Shown here piece after piece: positions 17,609 through 46,166 of a DNA stretch of 52,202 bases (its first letter is position 1; each line of letters begins with the position of its first letter). The DNA is from a virus. A program made the translations under genes and the position numbers. The stretch is from IMG/VR virus record IMGVR_UViG_3300047550_001373, positions 1 to 52,202 of that record; one strand, given 5' to 3'. Under the pieces are notes generated by a model. The model ran no database searches, was not told the DNA's origin, and worked only from the letters and a program-made list of their open reading frames with translations.

Positions 17609-17995
17609 ATGACCCCTGAAGGCAAAGTAAAATCGAAGGTAACCGATCTACTGCTCAAGTACTGCGCTTACTACTTCAAGCCCACTACCGGTGGTTACGG
17701 TAGAAGCGGCGTTCCTGATATCGTCGGGTGCGTGAACGGCAAGTTCTTCGCTATAGAATGCAAAGCGGGAAACAATCAGCCGACACTGCTACAAACAACC
17801 GAGATGGAAAATATAAGGTTACACAAAGGGGTAGCCTTTGTTATCAACGAAAATAACCTTCAGCTTCTTGAGGACTGGCTTTTAGAACAGTCCAAGGATA
17901 ATTCACAATATGTGCCGACCGAAAAAATGACCGTTCCCGCGATAGGAAAGCTCCATTCCAAGCGCATAAAGGTTTACTATGATCCTAACGATTGA
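17609..17995 (+). CDS. VRR-NUC domain nuclease
   Basis: A 128-residue protein. The motif GVPDIVGCVNGKFFAIECKAG (about residues 36-56) holds the PD, E and xK residues of the PD-(D/E)XK superfamily in the VRR-NUC arrangement, and the size matches stand-alone VRR-NUC proteins. These cut branched DNA such as Holliday junctions. GGAG lies 7 bases before the ATG. It overlaps the start of the DNA polymerase gene by 17 bases, so it is coupled to it. It probably resolves replication or packaging intermediates. Confidence 0.8.
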   Translation: MTPEGKVKSKVTDLLLKYCAYYFKPTTGGYGRSGVPDIVGCVNGKFFAIECKAGNNQPTLLQTTEMENIRLHKGVAFVINENNLQLLEDWLLEQSKDNSQYVPTEKMTVPAIGKLHSKRIKVYYDPND

Positions 17996-19847
17996 TTTTG
18001 AAACGTTCTATGATAAAGAATATTCTTTATCTAAGATCACAACCGAAGAGTACGTGCGCGATCCACGCTTTGAAACCATCGGCGTTTGCGTAAAGGTGGA
18101 CGACGAGCCGACTGAATGGTTTAGTGGTACGCACGAGCAGACAGCAAAGTGGTTGGCACAGTTCCCGTGGGAGGATGCGTTCGTGTTAGCCCACAACATG
18201 TTGTTCGACGGTGCGATACTTAGCTGGCGCTACAACATCAAACCCTTTGTGTACTTGGATACGCTGTGCATGGCGCGAGCAGTGGACGGCATCGAGGCAG
18301 GTAACAGTCTGTCAAAACTGGCCGAACGTTACAACCTTGGTCAGAAAGGCAACGAGGTAGTCCTAGCACTTGGCAAACGGCGCAAAGATTTCACATCGTA
18401 CGAGCTAAGTAACTACGCTCGGTACTGTGCTAACGACGTGGACATTACCTACAAGTTGTTCGACGTGTTCAAGGAGTCGTTCAACAAGAACGAACTAAAG
18501 GTAATCGACCTTACGTTACGCATGTTCACCATGCCAGTGCTGACCTTGGACTCTGCCTTCTTACAGAAGCACCTCGACGAAGTGATAGCGCAGAAGGAAA
18601 CGCTTCTTGAAGAAGCAGGTGTCACCAAAGAAGTTCTGATGTCTAACCCAAAGTTTGCCGCGATGCTTGAGTCTTGGGGCGTTGATGTGCCGATGAAGAT
18701 GAGTCCTACAACGAAGAAGATTACGTTTGCACTAGCAAAGAATGACGATGGGTTCAAAGCCTTAGCTGAGCATCCTGATCCTCGCGTCCAGTGCGCTGTT
18801 GCTGCTCGCTTAGGCACAAAATCAACTTTGGAAGAGACAAGGACGCAGAGGCTACTTGACATATCGTTTCGGGGTAGCCTCCCCGTTCCCCTTCGCTATT
18901 ACGCCGCGCACACTGGTCGTTGGGGTGGCGACGACAAGGTGAACCTCCAGAACATCCCTCGCAAATCAAAGATCAAGCAAGCCATTTGCGCCCCTCATGG
19001 GCATGTGCTTGTCGAAGCCGACTCCTCTCAAATCGAGGCGCGGATACTTGCATGGCTAGCTGGCGAAAAATATTTGGTTAATGCGTTTGAGAAAGGTGAA
19101 GACGTATACAAGATCATGGCCGCTGCGATGTATCACTGCGATGTGTCGGAGGTGACTGAAGCCCAACGCTTCATAGGCAAAACGGTTGTGCTCGGATGTG
19201 GTTACGGCCTAGGGGCTGAGAAGTTCATGAAGCATATGAACTCGGTCGGCGTACATATGGGCATCGATAATGCTCGGTACATCATCGGTACATACAGGGG
19301 CAGAAACGGATTCATTACTAACCTATGGGAAGAAGGACAGCGGTGCTTGGAAGCTCTTGCATCAGAAGAATTAAAAACCACTGAGTTTGGCTTTCAACCA
19401 CAGGCAGTAAAGCTTATGCCGGGAGTTGGGTTTGACATGCCGAGCGGCATACCCTTGAAATACCCCAAGATCGAAATCGATACTGAGGCTTCGTTGCGAA
19501 GGGCAGCAAAACTAGGGAGGCCGTTACAAGACACTATTCAGTACCGTTACGCAACCAAGCGTGGATACGTGAATATCTACGGCGGTAAGGTTGTGGAGAA
19601 CGTCTGCCAAGCATTGGCTCGCTGTGTAATAGCACAGCAGATGCTAAAGGTTGCAGCAGTGTATCCGGTGGTCCTCACAGTTCATGACTCGATTGTTTGC
19701 ATAGCACCAGAGCGTGGATGGGAAGCGGCTTGTGACTACGTGCAAGAGTGCATGAGATGGCGACCCTCATGGGCAAGTACGCTTCCTTTGAATTGCGAAG
19801 TCAAATACGGAAAGACATATGGAACAACAGTCAAATACATCGGATAA
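17979..19847 (+). CDS. Family A DNA polymerase with 3'-5' exonuclease
   Basis: A 622-residue polymerase. The N-terminal exonuclease shows DFETF (residues 6-10), AHNMLFDG (about 70-77) and YCANDVD (about 149-155). Polymerase motifs follow: motif A DSSQIE (about 348), motif B R-x3-K-x3-L-G-x2-Y-G (about 397-409) and motif C VHDS (about 568). The residue at the position of E. coli Phe762 is Leu. Motif C has Ser where Glu is usual (VHDE). No 5'-3' exonuclease domain is present. It starts within the end of the VRR-NUC gene and is the replicative polymerase of the phage. It overlaps the next gene by 29 bases. Confidence 0.93.
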   Translation: MILTIDFETFYDKEYSLSKITTEEYVRDPRFETIGVCVKVDDEPTEWFSGTHEQTAKWLAQFPWEDAFVLAHNMLFDGAILSWRYNIKPFVYLDTLCMARAVDGIEAGNSLSKLAERYNLGQKGNEVVLALGKRRKDFTSYELSNYARYCANDVDITYKLFDVFKESFNKNELKVIDLTLRMFTMPVLTLDSAFLQKHLDEVIAQKETLLEEAGVTKEVLMSNPKFAAMLESWGVDVPMKMSPTTKKITFALAKNDDGFKALAEHPDPRVQCAVAARLGTKSTLEETRTQRLLDISFRGSLPVPLRYYAAHTGRWGGDDKVNLQNIPRKSKIKQAICAPHGHVLVEADSSQIEARILAWLAGEKYLVNAFEKGEDVYKIMAAAMYHCDVSEVTEAQRFIGKTVVLGCGYGLGAEKFMKHMNSVGVHMGIDNARYIIGTYRGRNGFITNLWEEGQRCLEALASEELKTTEFGFQPQAVKLMPGVGFDMPSGIPLKYPKIEIDTEASLRRAAKLGRPLQDTIQYRYATKRGYVNIYGGKVVENVCQALARCVIAQQMLKVAAVYPVVLTVHDSIVCIAPERGWEAACDYVQECMRWRPSWASTLPLNCEVKYGKTYGTTVKYIG

Positions 19848-20911: not shown

Positions 20912-21099
20912 GCAATATGGAAGACATAAGCAAACATCTCATGCACGCACACACTGCACTCAAATCTGTGTACGAGTGTGTTAACGAGCAGCGTTATGAG
21001 CATGCACTGCACCACGCAGAGGAAGCCTTGTTTCACTCACGCTGCTGCATCTTGTGGTTGAAGGAGAGAACCGATGACCCCACAGCCCCTGACCGATAA
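20908..21099 (+). CDS. Small Cys/His-rich hypothetical protein
   Basis: A 63-residue protein beginning at a GTG that overlaps the previous stop, with an ATG three codons later as an alternative. It is His-rich (HLMHAHTALK, HALHHAEEALFHSRCC) and helical. Its end overlaps the next gene by 26 bases. No family is recognised. Confidence 0.5.
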   Translation: MSNMEDISKHLMHAHTALKSVYECVNEQRYEHALHHAEEALFHSRCCILWLKERTDDPTAPDR

Positions 21100-21505
21100 G
21101 CAGATCAAAGTTCTCAAGTACGTGAAGAAGCGGGTGACGCCGCCCACTGTCAGGGACATAGCCTTGCAGACGAAGCTCGATAAGAGCACTGTTTACGCTG
21201 TTATGACCAGACTTGTGAGGTGGGGTTGTGTTGAAAGCTTTTTGAAGAAAGACCCTAACAGGCCGTACATCACGGCAGAGCGGCATTACAAATTCATAAC
21301 GATGGAACCTACAAAACAGGAGAAGCTATTCCAGAAACAAGAAGATCGTTTGTATTCCAGAAAGTTTGCCAAGGCAAGGGTGACCATACCCGAGCCTTTT
21401 TTCAGTGATCCATTCAACATAACAGGAGAAAGAGATGCAAATAAAGACAACAAGCGAAAGCACAAACGTACTCGAAACGTTCAAACGGCAGTGGCGGCTT
21501 CTTAA
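21074..21505 (+). CDS. Second winged-helix protein
   Basis: A 143-residue protein. Residues about 7-50 (TDKQIKVLKYVKKRVTPPTVRDIALQTKLDKSTVYAVMTRLV) form a winged helix like the N-terminal DNA-binding part of LexA/MarR-type regulators. A long basic tail (KDNKRKHKRTRN) follows. AAGGAG lies before the ATG. It resembles the winged-helix protein two genes upstream, which may be an ancient duplication. No LexA-type protease part is present. A transcription role is likely. Confidence 0.65.
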   Translation: MTPQPLTDKQIKVLKYVKKRVTPPTVRDIALQTKLDKSTVYAVMTRLVRWGCVESFLKKDPNRPYITAERHYKFITMEPTKQEKLFQKQEDRLYSRKFAKARVTIPEPFFSDPFNITGERDANKDNKRKHKRTRNVQTAVAAS

Positions 21506-21640: not shown

Positions 21641-22408
21641 ATGGCTACAAAGAAAGTAACAGAAGATACGATTCAAATCGTTGAGATGGAAACCCAAACG
21701 GTTACGTTCCATGTACTAGGAACTACACCGATGATCTGCAATCGTATGCCTGAGAAGGCATGGCAGCAACTGCTTCTTCCTTCCGGTCGCAAGACTGCTG
21801 CTGAGAAAGCAGGATCAATGAAGCACGATCCTTTGACTGAGTATCGCTCATCGCCATACCGTATGCCGCAAGGTGATCATGCAACTGAGTTGTCTGTGTT
21901 AGCTACGCAGTTTAAAGGTGCGCTACGCAATGCTGCACTGGATATGCCTGGAGCTAAGAAGTCACAGATTGGTCGCCTGACAACGGTTGAGAATGAACGT
22001 CTTGAGTTGTTCGGTGTTCCTAAGATCTTCTCAAGTATCACTCGGTCAGCAGACATCAACAAGACCCCTGATGTACGCACTCGCGCCATCGTACCGAAGT
22101 GGGCATGTAAGGTTGACATCACTTATGTGCGTCCGGTTTTGAACCATACAGTTATCTCTAACCTTTTCGCTACAGCAGGTATAACGATGGGCGTAGGTGA
22201 TTGGAGACCTGAGAAAGGTTCAGGTAACTACGGTCGTTGGAAGATTGTCGATGCTGATGATTCTGACTTCTTAGAAATAATTAAGACAGGTGGCAAGGCA
22301 GCGCAACTTGAAGCACTGGAGAACCCAGAGGCTTATGACGATGACACTGAAGAGTTGCTATCGTGGTTCAACACAGAGACCAAACGTCGTGGTTTGAAAG
22401 TAGCTTAA
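21641..22408 (+). CDS. Conserved phage protein, possibly RAMP-like
   Basis: A 255-residue protein. LGTTPMICNRMPEKAWQQLL and a KTAAEKAGSMKHDP segment open it, then LATQFKGALRNAA (about residues 86-98) and GITMGVGDWRPEKGSGNYGRWKIV near residues 183-206. I recognise the general sequence as a protein common in phages and of unknown function. The FKGALR motif and the late Gly-rich GxGxW-GxGrw block resemble the pattern of RAMP/Cas7 RNA-binding proteins, which is a weak hint. It lies in the replication cluster, directly upstream of a conserved small gene and the pentad array. Confidence 0.6.
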   Translation: MATKKVTEDTIQIVEMETQTVTFHVLGTTPMICNRMPEKAWQQLLLPSGRKTAAEKAGSMKHDPLTEYRSSPYRMPQGDHATELSVLATQFKGALRNAALDMPGAKKSQIGRLTTVENERLELFGVPKIFSSITRSADINKTPDVRTRAIVPKWACKVDITYVRPVLNHTVISNLFATAGITMGVGDWRPEKGSGNYGRWKIVDADDSDFLEIIKTGGKAAQLEALENPEAYDDDTEELLSWFNTETKRRGLKVA

Positions 22409-22418
22409 GGAGATAAAC

Positions 22419-22883
22419 ATGGATAGAGCCGCAATAGCTAAAAGATTAGAGGAGATTGCGGCCCTCCACGGAGGGTCGCTTACACCAGACATCGTAGTGG
22501 CAGATGCTAAGAACCCATCAAGTCCTTTACATAGCTACTTTGACTGGAGTGTTGAGAGCGCAGCACATAAGCACTGGATTGATACCGCACGTAATCTAAT
22601 TGCTTCTGTGCGCGTGATTGTAACCACAGAGAAAGTTGTTATTAAAGCACCTTTCTATCTACGTGATCCAAGCAAAAAAGGTAACGAGCAAGGCTACACC
22701 ACACTTACCAAAGTACGTAGTAATAAAGATCTTTCAAGGGAAGTTATCAATAATGAAGTTGCACTCATTGTTGGTGCGCTAAGAAGAGCAAAGAACGTAG
22801 CACAAGCCCTTGATATGGTGGATGAGATGGAAGCACTGCTTGAACAAGTCTTAGTCCTACGCAACAAGCTAGAGAAGGTTTAG
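22419..22883 (+). CDS. Conserved phage protein upstream of the G-rich array
   Basis: A 154-residue protein. It opens with MDRAAIAKRLEEIAA, and the next segment, VVADAKNPSSPLHSYFDW, is familiar from phage proteins of unknown function. A helical C-terminal half (about residues 95-154) is coiled-coil-like. AAGGAG lies before the ATG. It is the last gene before the array; its TAG stop contributes the first G of the array's first GGCA. No catalytic motif is visible. Confidence 0.65.
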   Translation: MDRAAIAKRLEEIAALHGGSLTPDIVVADAKNPSSPLHSYFDWSVESAAHKHWIDTARNLIASVRVIVTTEKVVIKAPFYLRDPSKKGNEQGYTTLTKVRSNKDLSREVINNEVALIVGALRRAKNVAQALDMVDEMEALLEQVLVLRNKLEKV

Positions 22884-23323
22884 GCAGGCCGGGTACGGTA
22901 AGGTCAGGCTTGGTGCGGTGGGGTTCGGCAGGCAAGGCGCGGCTAGATTAAGCAAGGTGGGGTATGGCGACGTGAGGTAGGGCAGGCTCGGTTCGGTAGG
23001 TTGCCTTTGGGTATGGTTCGGCGCGGTTCGTTTTGGCAGGCAAGGATTGATCCGGCATGGACAGGCGCGGCAACGCGGGGTGCGGTGAGGTATGGTATGG
23101 CAGGCGTGGTGAGGTCGGGTGAGGTGAGGTCGGGTCGGGTTTGTTGTGGCAGGCTAGGTGAGGTCGGGTTAGTTGTTATATGTAAGGTCTTATCAGGCAG
23201 GCTAGGTAAGGTTCGGTTCGGTTTTATTCAGTGCGGTTTGTTAGGGCAGGCACGGTGGCGTTAGGTAATACAAGGTGTGATGGGTTTTGATGAGGCAGGT
23301 AATTTAATTAAGAAAGGAAAACT
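22883..23323 (+). repeat. G-rich array of pentads in GGCA-headed units
   Basis: A non-coding 441-bp stretch between two genes in which GG recurs about every 5 bases (GGYNN pentads). GGCAGG starts units at 22883, 22927, 22981, 23035, 23099, 23148, 23196, 23245 and 23294. Spacings are 44, 54, 54, 64, 49, 48, 49 and 49 bases. All but the 48 equal 4 plus a multiple of 5, as if each unit were GGCA plus 8-12 pentads; the 48 is one base short. The last unit decays into A-rich sequence and the ribosome site of the next gene. G is much more frequent than C on the plus strand. I do not recognise this element. It could be a structured RNA, a G-quadruplex-forming tract or a protein-binding array. Confidence 0.75.
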
Positions 23324-23563
23324 ATGAGTATGATGAATTTAAACAAACCAGCAGAAACGGAAACACAACCTGTGTTCATTCTGCGCGGTGTGCCGTATCT
23401 GCCCCATTACAGTTTTAAACATACATGGATAAGTCCCGGCAGAGAACATGAGTGTAAGAAGTACAGCACCACTGAAATGGTTGAAGTAGGCGCACGTCTT
23501 ACGACGATGCAGTTATGGAAAAGATTTTGGACAAATGAGGTGAAGGGATGGAAGATACTTTGA
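23324..23563 (+). CDS. Small hypothetical protein after the array
   Basis: A 79-residue protein with the ribosome site AAAGGAAAA placed at the decayed end of the array. Central segment PHYSFKHTWISPGREHECKKYS has several aromatic and basic residues. It overlaps the next small gene by 16 bases. No family is recognised. Confidence 0.55.
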   Translation: MSMMNLNKPAETETQPVFILRGVPYLPHYSFKHTWISPGREHECKKYSTTEMVEVGARLTTMQLWKRFWTNEVKGWKIL

Positions 23564-43340: not shown

Positions 43341-46166
43341 TCAAGCAGGCATCATACGGCCCATATTGATTTCGGGCGGTTGTCTTGTTGTGCCATGTCG
43401 TGCTTTTCTAACTCGATCCATCATGGCGTAAAGTTTCTTAGACCCAGCGTTACTGGAGCCGTTACCTAGATCTGCAACAACATCGGCAGGGATCACAAAC
43501 TCTCCATCGGCAAGACGAGCCTCTTGAACACCCTCGATGGTAGCAGGCACACTATCACTCATGCCATCCCCTGCGCCATTTATTGTGCGAGGTTCGTTAG
43601 CAGGCCCAGTGGCACCTCCAGCAACCATAGCGGCAATCTCACCGCCCCCAGCGACATTGACACTACCTAATGTACTAGCGAATAGTTGACGGTACTGTTC
43701 CTCACGTTTCTTTCTTTCATCTTCTTCAGCTTGAATCTGCATCTGTTGACGTGTAGCTTCATCCATACCACTGATAGACATCGTTGGTAAAAACGTAGTG
43801 GCTGCTGCTTGGAATGGAGTCATACCGGCTGCGGCTTTAAATGCTTCTCCTGCACCGGGGGCATTGGTGGCTAGGTTTTTAGCACCTTCAAATAAAGTCG
43901 TTCCTCTATCTGCTATGGCACTCATACCCCTTGATACTATATTTTCGGCAGCAGGTACTGCTGTTTGCGCGGCAGTTTGCCCTGCGTTTTGAAACATAAT
44001 AGATTTAGCAGCGTCCCCAGCGATAGCTGGTGCAGTTTGTGTAGGAATATTTTTAGCAACTTCTCCTGCTATATCAGTAGTAAGTCCCTTAGCAACCTCG
44101 CCAGGAACAGTGCTAGTAGCCGCTGCACCTGCATCAGCAGCACCCGTTAAACCTTTGCCTAACTGTCCTAACCCGTAGGAAGCAATACCCGTTAACAGCC
44201 CACGCTTCCAGTTAAATTTTTCGCCTGGACCCCCCATACCACCAGAGATTCCACCGACAAGCGCACCGGCTAACGGCCCACCAAGTAACGATGCAGCAAT
44301 ACCCAAAATAGGGCCAGCTTTCTTAAATAACTTTCTCCAACTGAAGTACTCAGGCAAGCCAGTCTGTGGATTTATAGTCCCCGCACCACCCATCGCTTGT
44401 AGCATCTGAGCTTCTTCGGGACTGATGTGGGCTAGCATCGTGTCGCCAAACCGACCTTTCTGCGCCATTTCTTCTGCGTAGCCCTTCATGGCAATACTAC
44501 CTAGCCCACGACCGACACCACCACCTTCGGCGTATTGGTATAGAGGACGAATTCTATTACCGCGCTCATCAAACATTGTTGCCGGAGCTGTACTCTCAAA
44601 CATAGAAGCTGGGAAATACTCAGCACCTGTACGACCCTGTCGCACCATCAGCATACGTTCTGCTAACGCATCAATACCTTTATCCCTAGCCTCACGTTCA
44701 GCAGTTTCTAGTAGCGGATTGAATACGACATTTCGTGGTAATGATTCTCTGTAGCCAGCTAATACTTTTTGTACGGCTGGTGTGAACATATAGTTTTCGT
44801 CAACGTATTCTGGCAATCCAAAATCGCTCAACGAATACTTAGCCATTTCTTTAGGTGCAGTAACTTCTTTCCCTTCTGCAAATGCAATTGGCCCACCCAT
44901 GTTTTTTGTTACAGGAGCGATAACTGAATTACCCGCAGCTAACTGACCAAGATTTCCAAGATCCCGTGGAGCTTGTATCACATCAAGCGTATCAAAAGTA
45001 GTCTTTAAAGTAGGCGCAGTAGCGGTTGATACATACGACGGCAAAGTTGTAGATGCTCCTGCAAGCATCGTAGAGCCTGGAGGTTTGTAGCCTATACTTT
45101 GTAGATAGTTAAGGTTTGCGTCTGTTAGCCCAATCGAAGCTAGCTGTGTTGGAGTTACACGGTTAGCATTTGCCCAAGCAACTTTTTGAGCATCACTAAA
45201 GTTTGCAAAATTAGGGGGGAGTGCCGTATTAATACCTACATCCAAAGCAGCCTGTAGCCCAGACTTTGTAAACGGCTGCGCCGCAATTGCGGCTCTTGCA
45301 GCAGCAAGTCCTCTTTCAGCAGCAGGTCGTGCAAGCAGTTGAGGTTGGTTAGCTTGGAAAACAGCGTTGGCTTGCGCCCTTGCCGCAAAATCTTCCATTG
45401 ATATTTGAGGAACAATACGCCCTTCGTTCTTACCGATATTGTTGTAATGCCATTGAGCATACGATTCGACGGTAGGGAAACGCGGGTCTTGAAACTGATT
45501 CTTTAACTTCTCCCACTCAGCCTGCAACCCAGGCACCATCTTCCCGTACGCCGTCCAATCAGGGACAGTGTTTGTTGTGGCCGTAGTGGTTGTAGTACCC
45601 CCTGTACCCCCTGTAGTGGTTGTAGTACCCCCTGTACCCCCTGTAGTGGTTGTAGTACCCCCTGTAGTACCCCCTGTAGTACCACCTGTAGTACCACCTG
45701 TAGTACCACCTGTAGTATCACCTGTAGTACCCCCTGTAGTACCCCCTGTAGTACCCCCTGTAGTGGTTGTAGTACCCCCTGTAGTACCCCCTGTAGTGGT
45801 TGTAGTACCCCCTGTAGTACCCCCTGTATCCGCAGGCTCAATATACCCAGGTATACCCTCTTGTTGAACTTGTGCGCGGACTTCAGGGGGAGAGAAATCC
45901 CTACCCGCTAATGCTGCTTGGATTGTATTAGCAGATAATTGCCCACCAAAAGCTTGTGAAATTGTTTCAGCAAGCTCAGTATTTGTTAGAAGCGGATTTC
46001 CAAGGATAGCTCTAAGTCCCGCAGCTTCTTGTAGCGTCACACCAGAACCAGACCAATAGGCTTGTGCTGCGGCATCGGCTAACTGTTTGAGTTGCGACTG
46101 AGTATATAAAGGAGCGTCTATTGGATCACCTTCAATAGCACGTCTGTCTGTAGAAGTTATAGCCAT
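43341..46166 (-). CDS. Large structural protein with a Thr/Gly tandem repeat
   Basis: A 941-residue protein. Residues about 112-195 are almost entirely Thr and Gly (GGTTGGTTTTTGG units) encoded by a DNA tandem repeat. Before it is a helical N-terminus. After it come mixed segments, MGGPIAFAEGKEV (about 430-442) and several Gly-rich blocks (about 650-700). The GGxIAFAxG motif also occurs in the 611-residue protein. Near the end is a helix with KKREEQYRQLFAS. It is probably an internal virion or tail protein; the flexible Thr/Gly linker may allow passage or reach. GAGGT precedes the ATG. Confidence 0.6.
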   Translation of the reverse strand: MAITSTDRRAIEGDPIDAPLYTQSQLKQLADAAAQAYWSGSGVTLQEAAGLRAILGNPLLTNTELAETISQAFGGQLSANTIQAALAGRDFSPPEVRAQVQQEGIPGYIEPADTGGTTGGTTTTTGGTTGGTTTTTGGTTGGTTGGTTGDTTGGTTGGTTGGTTGGTTGGTTTTTGGTGGTTTTTGGTGGTTTTTATTNTVPDWTAYGKMVPGLQAEWEKLKNQFQDPRFPTVESYAQWHYNNIGKNEGRIVPQISMEDFAARAQANAVFQANQPQLLARPAAERGLAAARAAIAAQPFTKSGLQAALDVGINTALPPNFANFSDAQKVAWANANRVTPTQLASIGLTDANLNYLQSIGYKPPGSTMLAGASTTLPSYVSTATAPTLKTTFDTLDVIQAPRDLGNLGQLAAGNSVIAPVTKNMGGPIAFAEGKEVTAPKEMAKYSLSDFGLPEYVDENYMFTPAVQKVLAGYRESLPRNVVFNPLLETAEREARDKGIDALAERMLMVRQGRTGAEYFPASMFESTAPATMFDERGNRIRPLYQYAEGGGVGRGLGSIAMKGYAEEMAQKGRFGDTMLAHISPEEAQMLQAMGGAGTINPQTGLPEYFSWRKLFKKAGPILGIAASLLGGPLAGALVGGISGGMGGPGEKFNWKRGLLTGIASYGLGQLGKGLTGAADAGAAATSTVPGEVAKGLTTDIAGEVAKNIPTQTAPAIAGDAAKSIMFQNAGQTAAQTAVPAAENIVSRGMSAIADRGTTLFEGAKNLATNAPGAGEAFKAAAGMTPFQAAATTFLPTMSISGMDEATRQQMQIQAEEDERKKREEQYRQLFASTLGSVNVAGGGEIAAMVAGGATGPANEPRTINGAGDGMSDSVPATIEGVQEARLADGEFVIPADVVADLGNGSSNAGSKKLYAMMDRVRKARHGTTRQPPEINMGRMMPA
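45585..45832. repeat. Tandem repeat within the 941-residue protein gene
   Basis: A tract of about 250 bp built of CCTGTAGTACCC-type 12-mers and GTAGTGGTT variants (plus-strand reading), which encodes the Thr/Gly linker. It is likely to vary in copy number by slippage. Confidence 0.85.

Follow-up and report, generated by a model that had tools for sequence, protein, structure and literature searches.

A GGCA-separated array of five-base repeats in an uncultivated phage is a probable VIPR guide array with one unit matching family-A DNA polymerase genes

The intergenic tract of five-base repeats that follows a gene of 154 codons in this uncultivated phage is, with a probability that we put at roughly 85%, the guide array of a VIPR system carried by the phage, with its fourth unit directed against a DNA polymerase and the system probably repressing competing phages. 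That the locus belongs to VIPR, whether active or not, is close to certain. The window analysed is an entire virus record of 52,202 bases, which may itself be a fragment. VIPR was first described in a 2026 preprint, in which the RAMP-fold protein Vipr works with guide RNAs of about 9–16 repeats, each made of a constant GGY and a hypervariable NN (PMC13142463). The NN letters pair with double-stranded DNA, one base being skipped between pairs, and natural guides aim at competing phages and satellites (PMC13142463). For the SUSP1 system, RNA expression and co-purification with Vipr have been shown, the skip rule holds both in vitro and in cells, and repression was demonstrated in E. coli (PMC13142463). 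A literature search on VIPR with vrRNA returned nothing beyond this preprint.

By analogy, we infer the following mechanism for the window. The array would be transcribed on the strand that it shares with vipr and the second gene, and cutting at GGCA would yield one guide RNA per GGCA-to-GGCA unit. Within each pentad the constant GGY would be held by a Vipr subunit, with subunits stacked along the array RNA, and NN would pair with target DNA, leaving one target base unread between consecutive NN pairs. The complex would probably bind genes of competing phages and block their transcription. Unit 4 would be directed at rival family-A polymerase genes, and placing the skip at wobble positions would let one guide serve against many polymerases.

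Results

Array layout and five-base periodicity

Nine GGCAGG heads begin at 22883, 22927, 22981, 23035, 23099, 23148, 23196, 23245 and 23294 (Table 1). Their spacings (44, 54, 54, 64, 49, 48, 49 and 49) are exactly those originally predicted, and all except 48 equal 4 modulo 5, as had also been claimed. The head at 22883 shares the last base of the TAG stop codon at 22881-22883, and the array as a whole sits between the 154-aa gene that ends there and a gene starting at 23324. Units U1–U5, U7 and U8 hold 8–12 pentads, with U1 (8) just under the length of about 9–16 given for VIPR, and U6 is irregular.

The periodicity is strong. GG pairs at lag 5 number 44, against a mean of 15.2 (sd 3.6, maximum 27) in 2000 dinucleotide shuffles, of which 0/2000 reach 44. 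Pairs at lags 10, 15, 20, 25, 49 and 54 also exceed every shuffle, and any other 440-base segment of the record (20-base steps, both strands, overlaps with the array excluded) has at most seven lag-5 pairs. A pentad-periodicity scan of the whole window scored the array at 148.6 and the sole other segment above 12 at 12.2. Elsewhere in the window, a tandem repeat at 45583-45828 (12- and 30-base units) encodes a Gly-Thr-rich stretch within a 941-aa open reading frame on the minus strand (43341-46166).

Table 1. Features of the VIPR locus in the window (+, strand as given)
Feature	Coordinates	Strand	Description	Basis
vipr	21641..22408	+	255-aa Vipr, RAMP fold, glycine-rich stretch GVGDWRPEKGSGNYGRW	PHROG, profile, hhalign, predicted structure
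probable vap (VIPR accessory protein)	22419..22883	+	154 aa, phrog_15946	PHROG; homolog in 103/135 array loci
vrRNA guide array (putative)	22883..23299	+	nine GGCA heads separating eight GGYNN-pentad units	
unit U1	22883..22926	+	8 pentads, letters CG AC AA CA TT GC GG TC	read directly
unit U2	22927..22980	+	10 pentads	
unit U3	22981..23034	+	10 pentads; orthologous unit in L023, L029	
unit U4	23035..23098	+	12 pentads, letters AA TT CC AT CA GC AA GG GC GA AT AT	
unit U4 guide (putative)	23035..23098	+	vs family-A DNA polymerase motif N-F-P-M-Q-A-N-G-A-E-M-M	
unit U5	23099..23147	+	9 pentads	
unit U6	23148..23195	+	irregular, 48 bases; common to relatives	
unit U7	23196..23244	+	9 pentads; orthologs in L020, L023, L029, L046	
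unit U8	23245..23293	+	9 pentads; orthologs in L018, L021, L023, L029, L042	
closing head GGCAGG	23294..23299	+	then leader of gene at 23324	

The tract had been described as GG recurring every five bases over 22883-23323, and as a non-coding sequence that is under selection without being a simple tandem repeat. The period, the start and each of these three properties are borne out. The unit of repetition is GGY plus NN rather than GG alone, and the array ends at 23299, with 23300-23323 forming the leader of the next gene. An 87-aa open reading frame that spans the tract was rejected as coding because units of 44–64 bases rotate the reading frame, and an Rfam match to the array (17.1 bits; gathering score 70) was dismissed as a chance lncRNA match.

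Three structural explanations had been offered for the strict frame. A repetitive RNA fold fails, as the 440-nt tract has a minimum free energy of -120.8 versus -126.1±4.8 in shuffles (z=+1.10), and 88 of 100 shuffles fold equally well or better. Two-tetrad G-quadruplexes, or an R-loop-forming G-rich tract used for example in replication priming, would draw on the GG with three-base loops that runs over most of the tract; we regard them as highly improbable, since GG is missing from several pentads and such structures leave the GGCA resets unexplained, as they do the NN conservation, the linkage to Vipr and the unit 4 match described below. Periodic binding of a protein comes close to our best account, which follows the published model of Vipr subunits along the RNA (PMC13142463).

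The Vipr gene and its neighbours

The second gene upstream of the array, vipr, belongs to PHROG phrog_4652, which also holds a Felixounavirus gene found 97.9% identical in SUSP1. The profile of the family matches the SUSP1 Vipr chain in the PDB (36pp) at E=1.1e-18, and hhalign aligns the window protein to the SUSP1 gene with a probability of 98.8 and E=5.5e-17. Its AlphaFold model (pLDDT 89.9) resembles type III CRISPR subunits of the Csm/Cas7 type (best Foldseek E 6.8e-07), with Z of about 10 against Csm3/Cas7 subunits; for example, Csm3 5yjd_B gives Z 10.3 and an rmsd of 2.8 over 134 residues. Residues G180, G184, R189 and G198 are invariant in a 75-row alignment. The window vipr is thus a RAMP homolog with a G-loop, as VIPR calls for, and the layout likewise places an intergenic tract beside it. 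In a phage collection, 30 records (25 Mycobacterium, 5 Gordonia) contain Vipr homologs at E up to 1e-5, all of them annotated as ‘hypothetical protein’.

The second gene, probably vap, lies between vipr and the array. In its family, phrog_15946, H38, W43 and A48 are invariant in 42 sequences. The protein model reaches a pLDDT of 82.1 and a pTM of 0.48, and a PDB fold search gave no significant match (best E=1.5). No relation to the second gene of SUSP1 was detected, the two falling in different PHROGs with an hhalign probability of 0.1. Neither Vipr nor the second-gene protein found a match in PADLOC or NCBIfam. Shortly upstream of vipr, at 21074-21505, a 143-aa helix-turn-helix protein (HTH_IclR) is encoded, a possible regulator of the operon. 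Between 20400 and the array, the + strand showed no sigma-70-like site.

Unit 4 and its polymerase target

Six units of the window (U2, U3, U4, U5, U7 and U8; U1 is too short, and U6 was left out) were each written as a nine-dinucleotide pattern with one-base skips, and viral contigs were searched for exact matches. The 18-letter core of U4 is present at 12 loci. When extended to 24 letters, five of the 12 agree at 24/24 and four at 23/24, with one each at 22, 21 and 18. In the 11 loci with 21–24 of the 24 letters, the match is in frame within one kind of gene, the base skipped is the wobble base of the codon, and the target peptide always contains NFPMQANGAE. L290 and L298 contain an identical target stretch, so distinct targets number at most 10. 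Pfam identifies a family-A DNA polymerase above cut-off in 10 of the 11, with the short open reading frame of L290 scoring below it. The named relatives of these polymerases are distant, with best identities of 21–28% among the matches listed. The twelfth locus (L287, 18/24) encodes a Ref-like endonuclease; its core match does not extend.

The phage's own family-A polymerase (17979-19847) differs in sequence at the U4 site, the site is absent from the phage's own genome, and the seven regular units match that genome no better than chance. Checked by eye, the U4 match spans the whole unit and stops at both GGCA heads, which suggests that GGCA marks the ends of guides. Compared with its own target loci, U4 scores 24/24 at skip 1; other skips give no more than 17 and 300 order shuffles no more than 20. 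This test is partly circular because 18 of the 24 letters served to fetch the loci. As judged from these sequence matches, unit 4 is a putative guide against a conserved family-A DNA polymerase motif of other phages, and because its skipped base lies at the wobble position, one such guide fits many polymerases.

Other units and a wider test of the skip rule

Matching other mobile elements by a one-base skip is expected of VIPR guides, and U4 does so as the one convincing case among the six scanned units. The scans with U5 and U7 found no matches in viral contigs. U8 matched a single sequence, present in two copies and out of wobble phase, which is not convincing, and U2 found two copies of one sequence that lie within no open reading frame longer than 60 aa. 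For U3 there were 10 core matches in several unrelated genes, with a recurring AEIQALE-like peptide; eight of the 10 are in wobble phase and five reach 19/20, with none at 20/20.

The skip rule was also tested on guides from other arrays, by comparing 746 unique guides (8–16 pentads, at least six distinct dinucleotides) with 2.64 Mb of DNA in which arrays were masked. Window-family guides were not compared with loci fetched with window patterns, which removed 10 circular rows at skip 1, two at skip 0 and one each at skips 2 and 3. E-values were simple binomial (p=0.27) for the best match of each guide only. At E<0.01, skip 1 gave 5/736 matches, and skips 0, 2 and 3 gave 0/744, 0/745 and 1/745; at E<0.1 the counts were 15 for skip 1 and 2, 5 and 2 for the others. 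These rates are not generalisable, since the DNA compared is a small set gathered around VIPR genes and targets.

Several of the matches have recognisable targets. At E<0.01, a guide of L243 matches the polymerase gene of L296 (21/22, motif QEIGIAAALSN) and one of L005 matches an SNF2 helicase in L107 (23/26), each with the skip at wobble in the longest open reading frame. A guide of L240 matches RecT in L109 (20/22), with the skip at the wobble position of the RecT frame, which was picked by its Pfam match, the longest open reading frame there being on the opposite strand. Also at E<0.01, an L014 guide matches L278 with the skip at the wobble position of a 133-aa open reading frame without a Pfam family, and an L035 guide matches L293 in GC-rich sequence, out of wobble phase. 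Another match of L014 is to the polymerase of L295 (18/20, E=0.03, skip at wobble). In composition, NN correlates with codon positions 1-2 (r=0.59 sense, 0.30 antisense), compared with -0.03 and 0.12 for positions 2-3 and negative values for positions 3-1.

An earlier version of this test (920 units, 2.37 Mb) gave 27 matches at E<0.1 for skip 1 against 8, 11 and 8, and was redone because its top rows were long low-complexity runs. Of the 19 earlier skip-1 matches at E<0.01, 14 were circular, pairing window-family units with loci fetched with their own pattern, and were discarded.

Array evolution among relatives

Seven contigs of the window lineage contain Vipr, the second gene and an array (L018, L020, L021, L023, L029, L042 and L046). 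L029 has the units of the window unchanged. Other relatives have some units in common, partly reordered, in arrays of up to about 1 kb. The related phages checked at this locus have the same kind of array with different guides, and not the unrelated sequence that would have told against the original prediction. The U3 guide has an extra 5′ pentad (AC) in L018, L021, L042 and L046, and from such comparisons guides seem to gain or lose terminal pentads.

Orthologous units were compared in nine groups, all of the window family, with 85 columns at each pentad position. The 31 variable columns divide over the pentad as 8 at the first G, 13 at the second G, 6 at Y and, for the N positions, 0 at the first and 4 at the second. 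Only 4/31 lie at NN (binomial p=0.001 against 40%), which argues that NN carries selected information and that single scaffold changes are tolerated. Unit pairs outside the window family looked mostly like unrelated units sharing GGC and were not used.

These data bear on the possibility that the array is a decaying, inactive relic in this phage lineage. GG is absent from 17 of the 67 pentads in the seven regular units, as counted by eye, so the window array may be partly decayed; substitutions between orthologous units fall mostly at GGY (27 of the 31 variable columns), and a convincing target was found for only one of six scanned guides. Simple decay, however, would not keep NN better than GGY, and the unit 4 pentads that lack GG (GATCC and CGCGG) retain their target letters. 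The reading frame of Vipr is also intact, with 96–98% identity to the window protein in four aligned relatives (L018, L020, L023 and L046), and arrays are longer in relatives. We consider a relic unlikely, though the least unlikely of the alternatives.

The same conservation weighs against a protein-binding leader RNA without guide function. TRAP, the trp RNA-binding attenuation protein, is a ring protein bound to triplets every five bases. A leader of this type shares the logic of equally spaced triplets bound by a protein multimer, here in units of 8–12 pentads. TRAP sites differ in having no guide letters, and the protein is unrelated; the gene family next to the array here is Vipr, whose fold is RAMP. 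If the spacer letters had no function, they would neither stay conserved at NN nor spell a 24-letter polymerase motif, and there is very little chance that this explanation holds. A VIPR guide array remains our preferred reading.

Spread of pentad arrays and linkage to Vipr

A search of viral contigs with the pattern GGCAGGCNNGGTNNGGTNNGGTNNGG returned 43 stretches. A clear array is present in 41 of the 43 GGCAGGCNNGGTNNGGTNNGGTNNGG stretches (scores of at least 51.8), in DNA of 37–73% GC, and no array in the other two (L007 and L012). A looser pattern gave at least 120 stretches in viral contigs. Altogether, 118 of at least 162 viral-side loci score 60 or more in the pentad scan; three of these viral-side loci (L001-L003) came from outside the pattern scans. 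For bacterial genomes, 17 of 119 loci among the matches listed have an array scoring 60 or more, and the remainder are presumably mostly chance matches in GC-rich DNA. Among the frame-resetting four-base steps in the first 46 loci, GGCA is the commonest with 557 occurrences, followed by GGTC with 102. Head-to-head units of at least six pentads mostly have 7–12, with a mode of 9.

Linkage was assessed in 135 array loci with a score of 60 or more, excluding L003, which is the window's own copy. Vipr homologs are encoded in 112 of the 135 and second-gene homologs in 103. All arrays with a Vipr neighbour share its strand (121/121), at a median gap of 449 bases, and Vipr lies upstream in 108 of them. 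No Vipr gene was found in 23 of the 135 array loci. In 12 of these the available sequence runs out no more than about 95 bases upstream of the array, and in six it does so only downstream, within about 110 bases, a weaker explanation because Vipr is usually upstream. Five loci (L006, L017, L070, L090 and L271) have no Vipr despite room on both sides of the array. Two arrays each are present in L271 (7626-8310 and 11163-11526) and L090 (699-997 and 1791-2045), with flanks of more than 600 bases; a diverged Vipr, or a protein encoded elsewhere, could serve them.

Among named phages, the only DNA matches were to a 65-base array stretch, in three phages. The two of these three that were examined are both Felixounavirus, and they provided the route to the SUSP1-type loci.

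Discussion

Relation to known systems

The window encodes a new VIPR member whose array, GGCA-separated and without tails, is unlike that of SUSP1, the one form compared. Both have a protein of the Vipr family, GGY/NN pentads, an intergenic site beside vipr and a second gene, and a reading with one base skipped. In SUSP1 (type II), each guide forms a tract of its own that ends in a conserved 3′ tail, whereas the units of the window abut, are tail-less and have GGCA between them; no structured 3′ tail was found after the guides of the window array, and the second genes show no relation. As a control, the pentad scan of SUSP1 marked one segment upstream and one downstream of vipr, in agreement with the one upstream and three downstream guides described (PMC13142463). 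The preprint distinguishes seven VIPR types and ‘staggered’ arrays (PMC13142463). What the window adds to known VIPR is a decoded polymerase target, unit boundaries and cassette-like turnover.

The original prediction that the tract is not CRISPR-like is true of the sequence and misleading for the system. Long near-identical repeats with unique spacers are absent from the array, its constant part being only GGCA/GGCAGG, and the proposed reading is not contiguous, unlike that of class 1 type III CRISPR-Cas. The partner protein has the Csm3/Cas7 fold of the type III backbone, and the RAMP fold and an array of guides are common to both.

Beyond uncultivated phages, the gene 19 locus of Gordonia phage ODay (MW534375) encodes a Vipr homolog with 30.2% identity, followed by GGCAGG-headed pentads. 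It differs in belonging to an actinobacterial phage and in its short array (3628-3787 of L283). ODay is cultured and is a possible laboratory model.

Implications

We rate it an even bet that arrays with GGCA separators and without tails form a VIPR architecture of their own, a very common one, made of whole guides that act as broad-spectrum weapons and turn over as cassettes. If so, the skipped base would be aligned to wobble positions of protein-conserved motifs in the replication and recombination genes of rivals, with family-A DNA polymerase, helicase and RecT as the named targets. Units would be gained, lost and reordered as cassettes, and selection would hold NN more than the scaffold. 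The same array form in the cultured phage ODay makes the VIPR reading testable.

The VIPR code could here be read from raw sequence, which provides evidence independent of the authors of the preprint: a guide of an uncultivated phage decodes to the polymerase motif of about ten other viral contigs. Pattern searches pick out pentad arrays easily, so a large number of guides could be decoded and the network of attackers and targets among uncultivated phages charted. A single guide that is blind to the wobble base would also offer phages a possible means of attacking entire groups of rivals.
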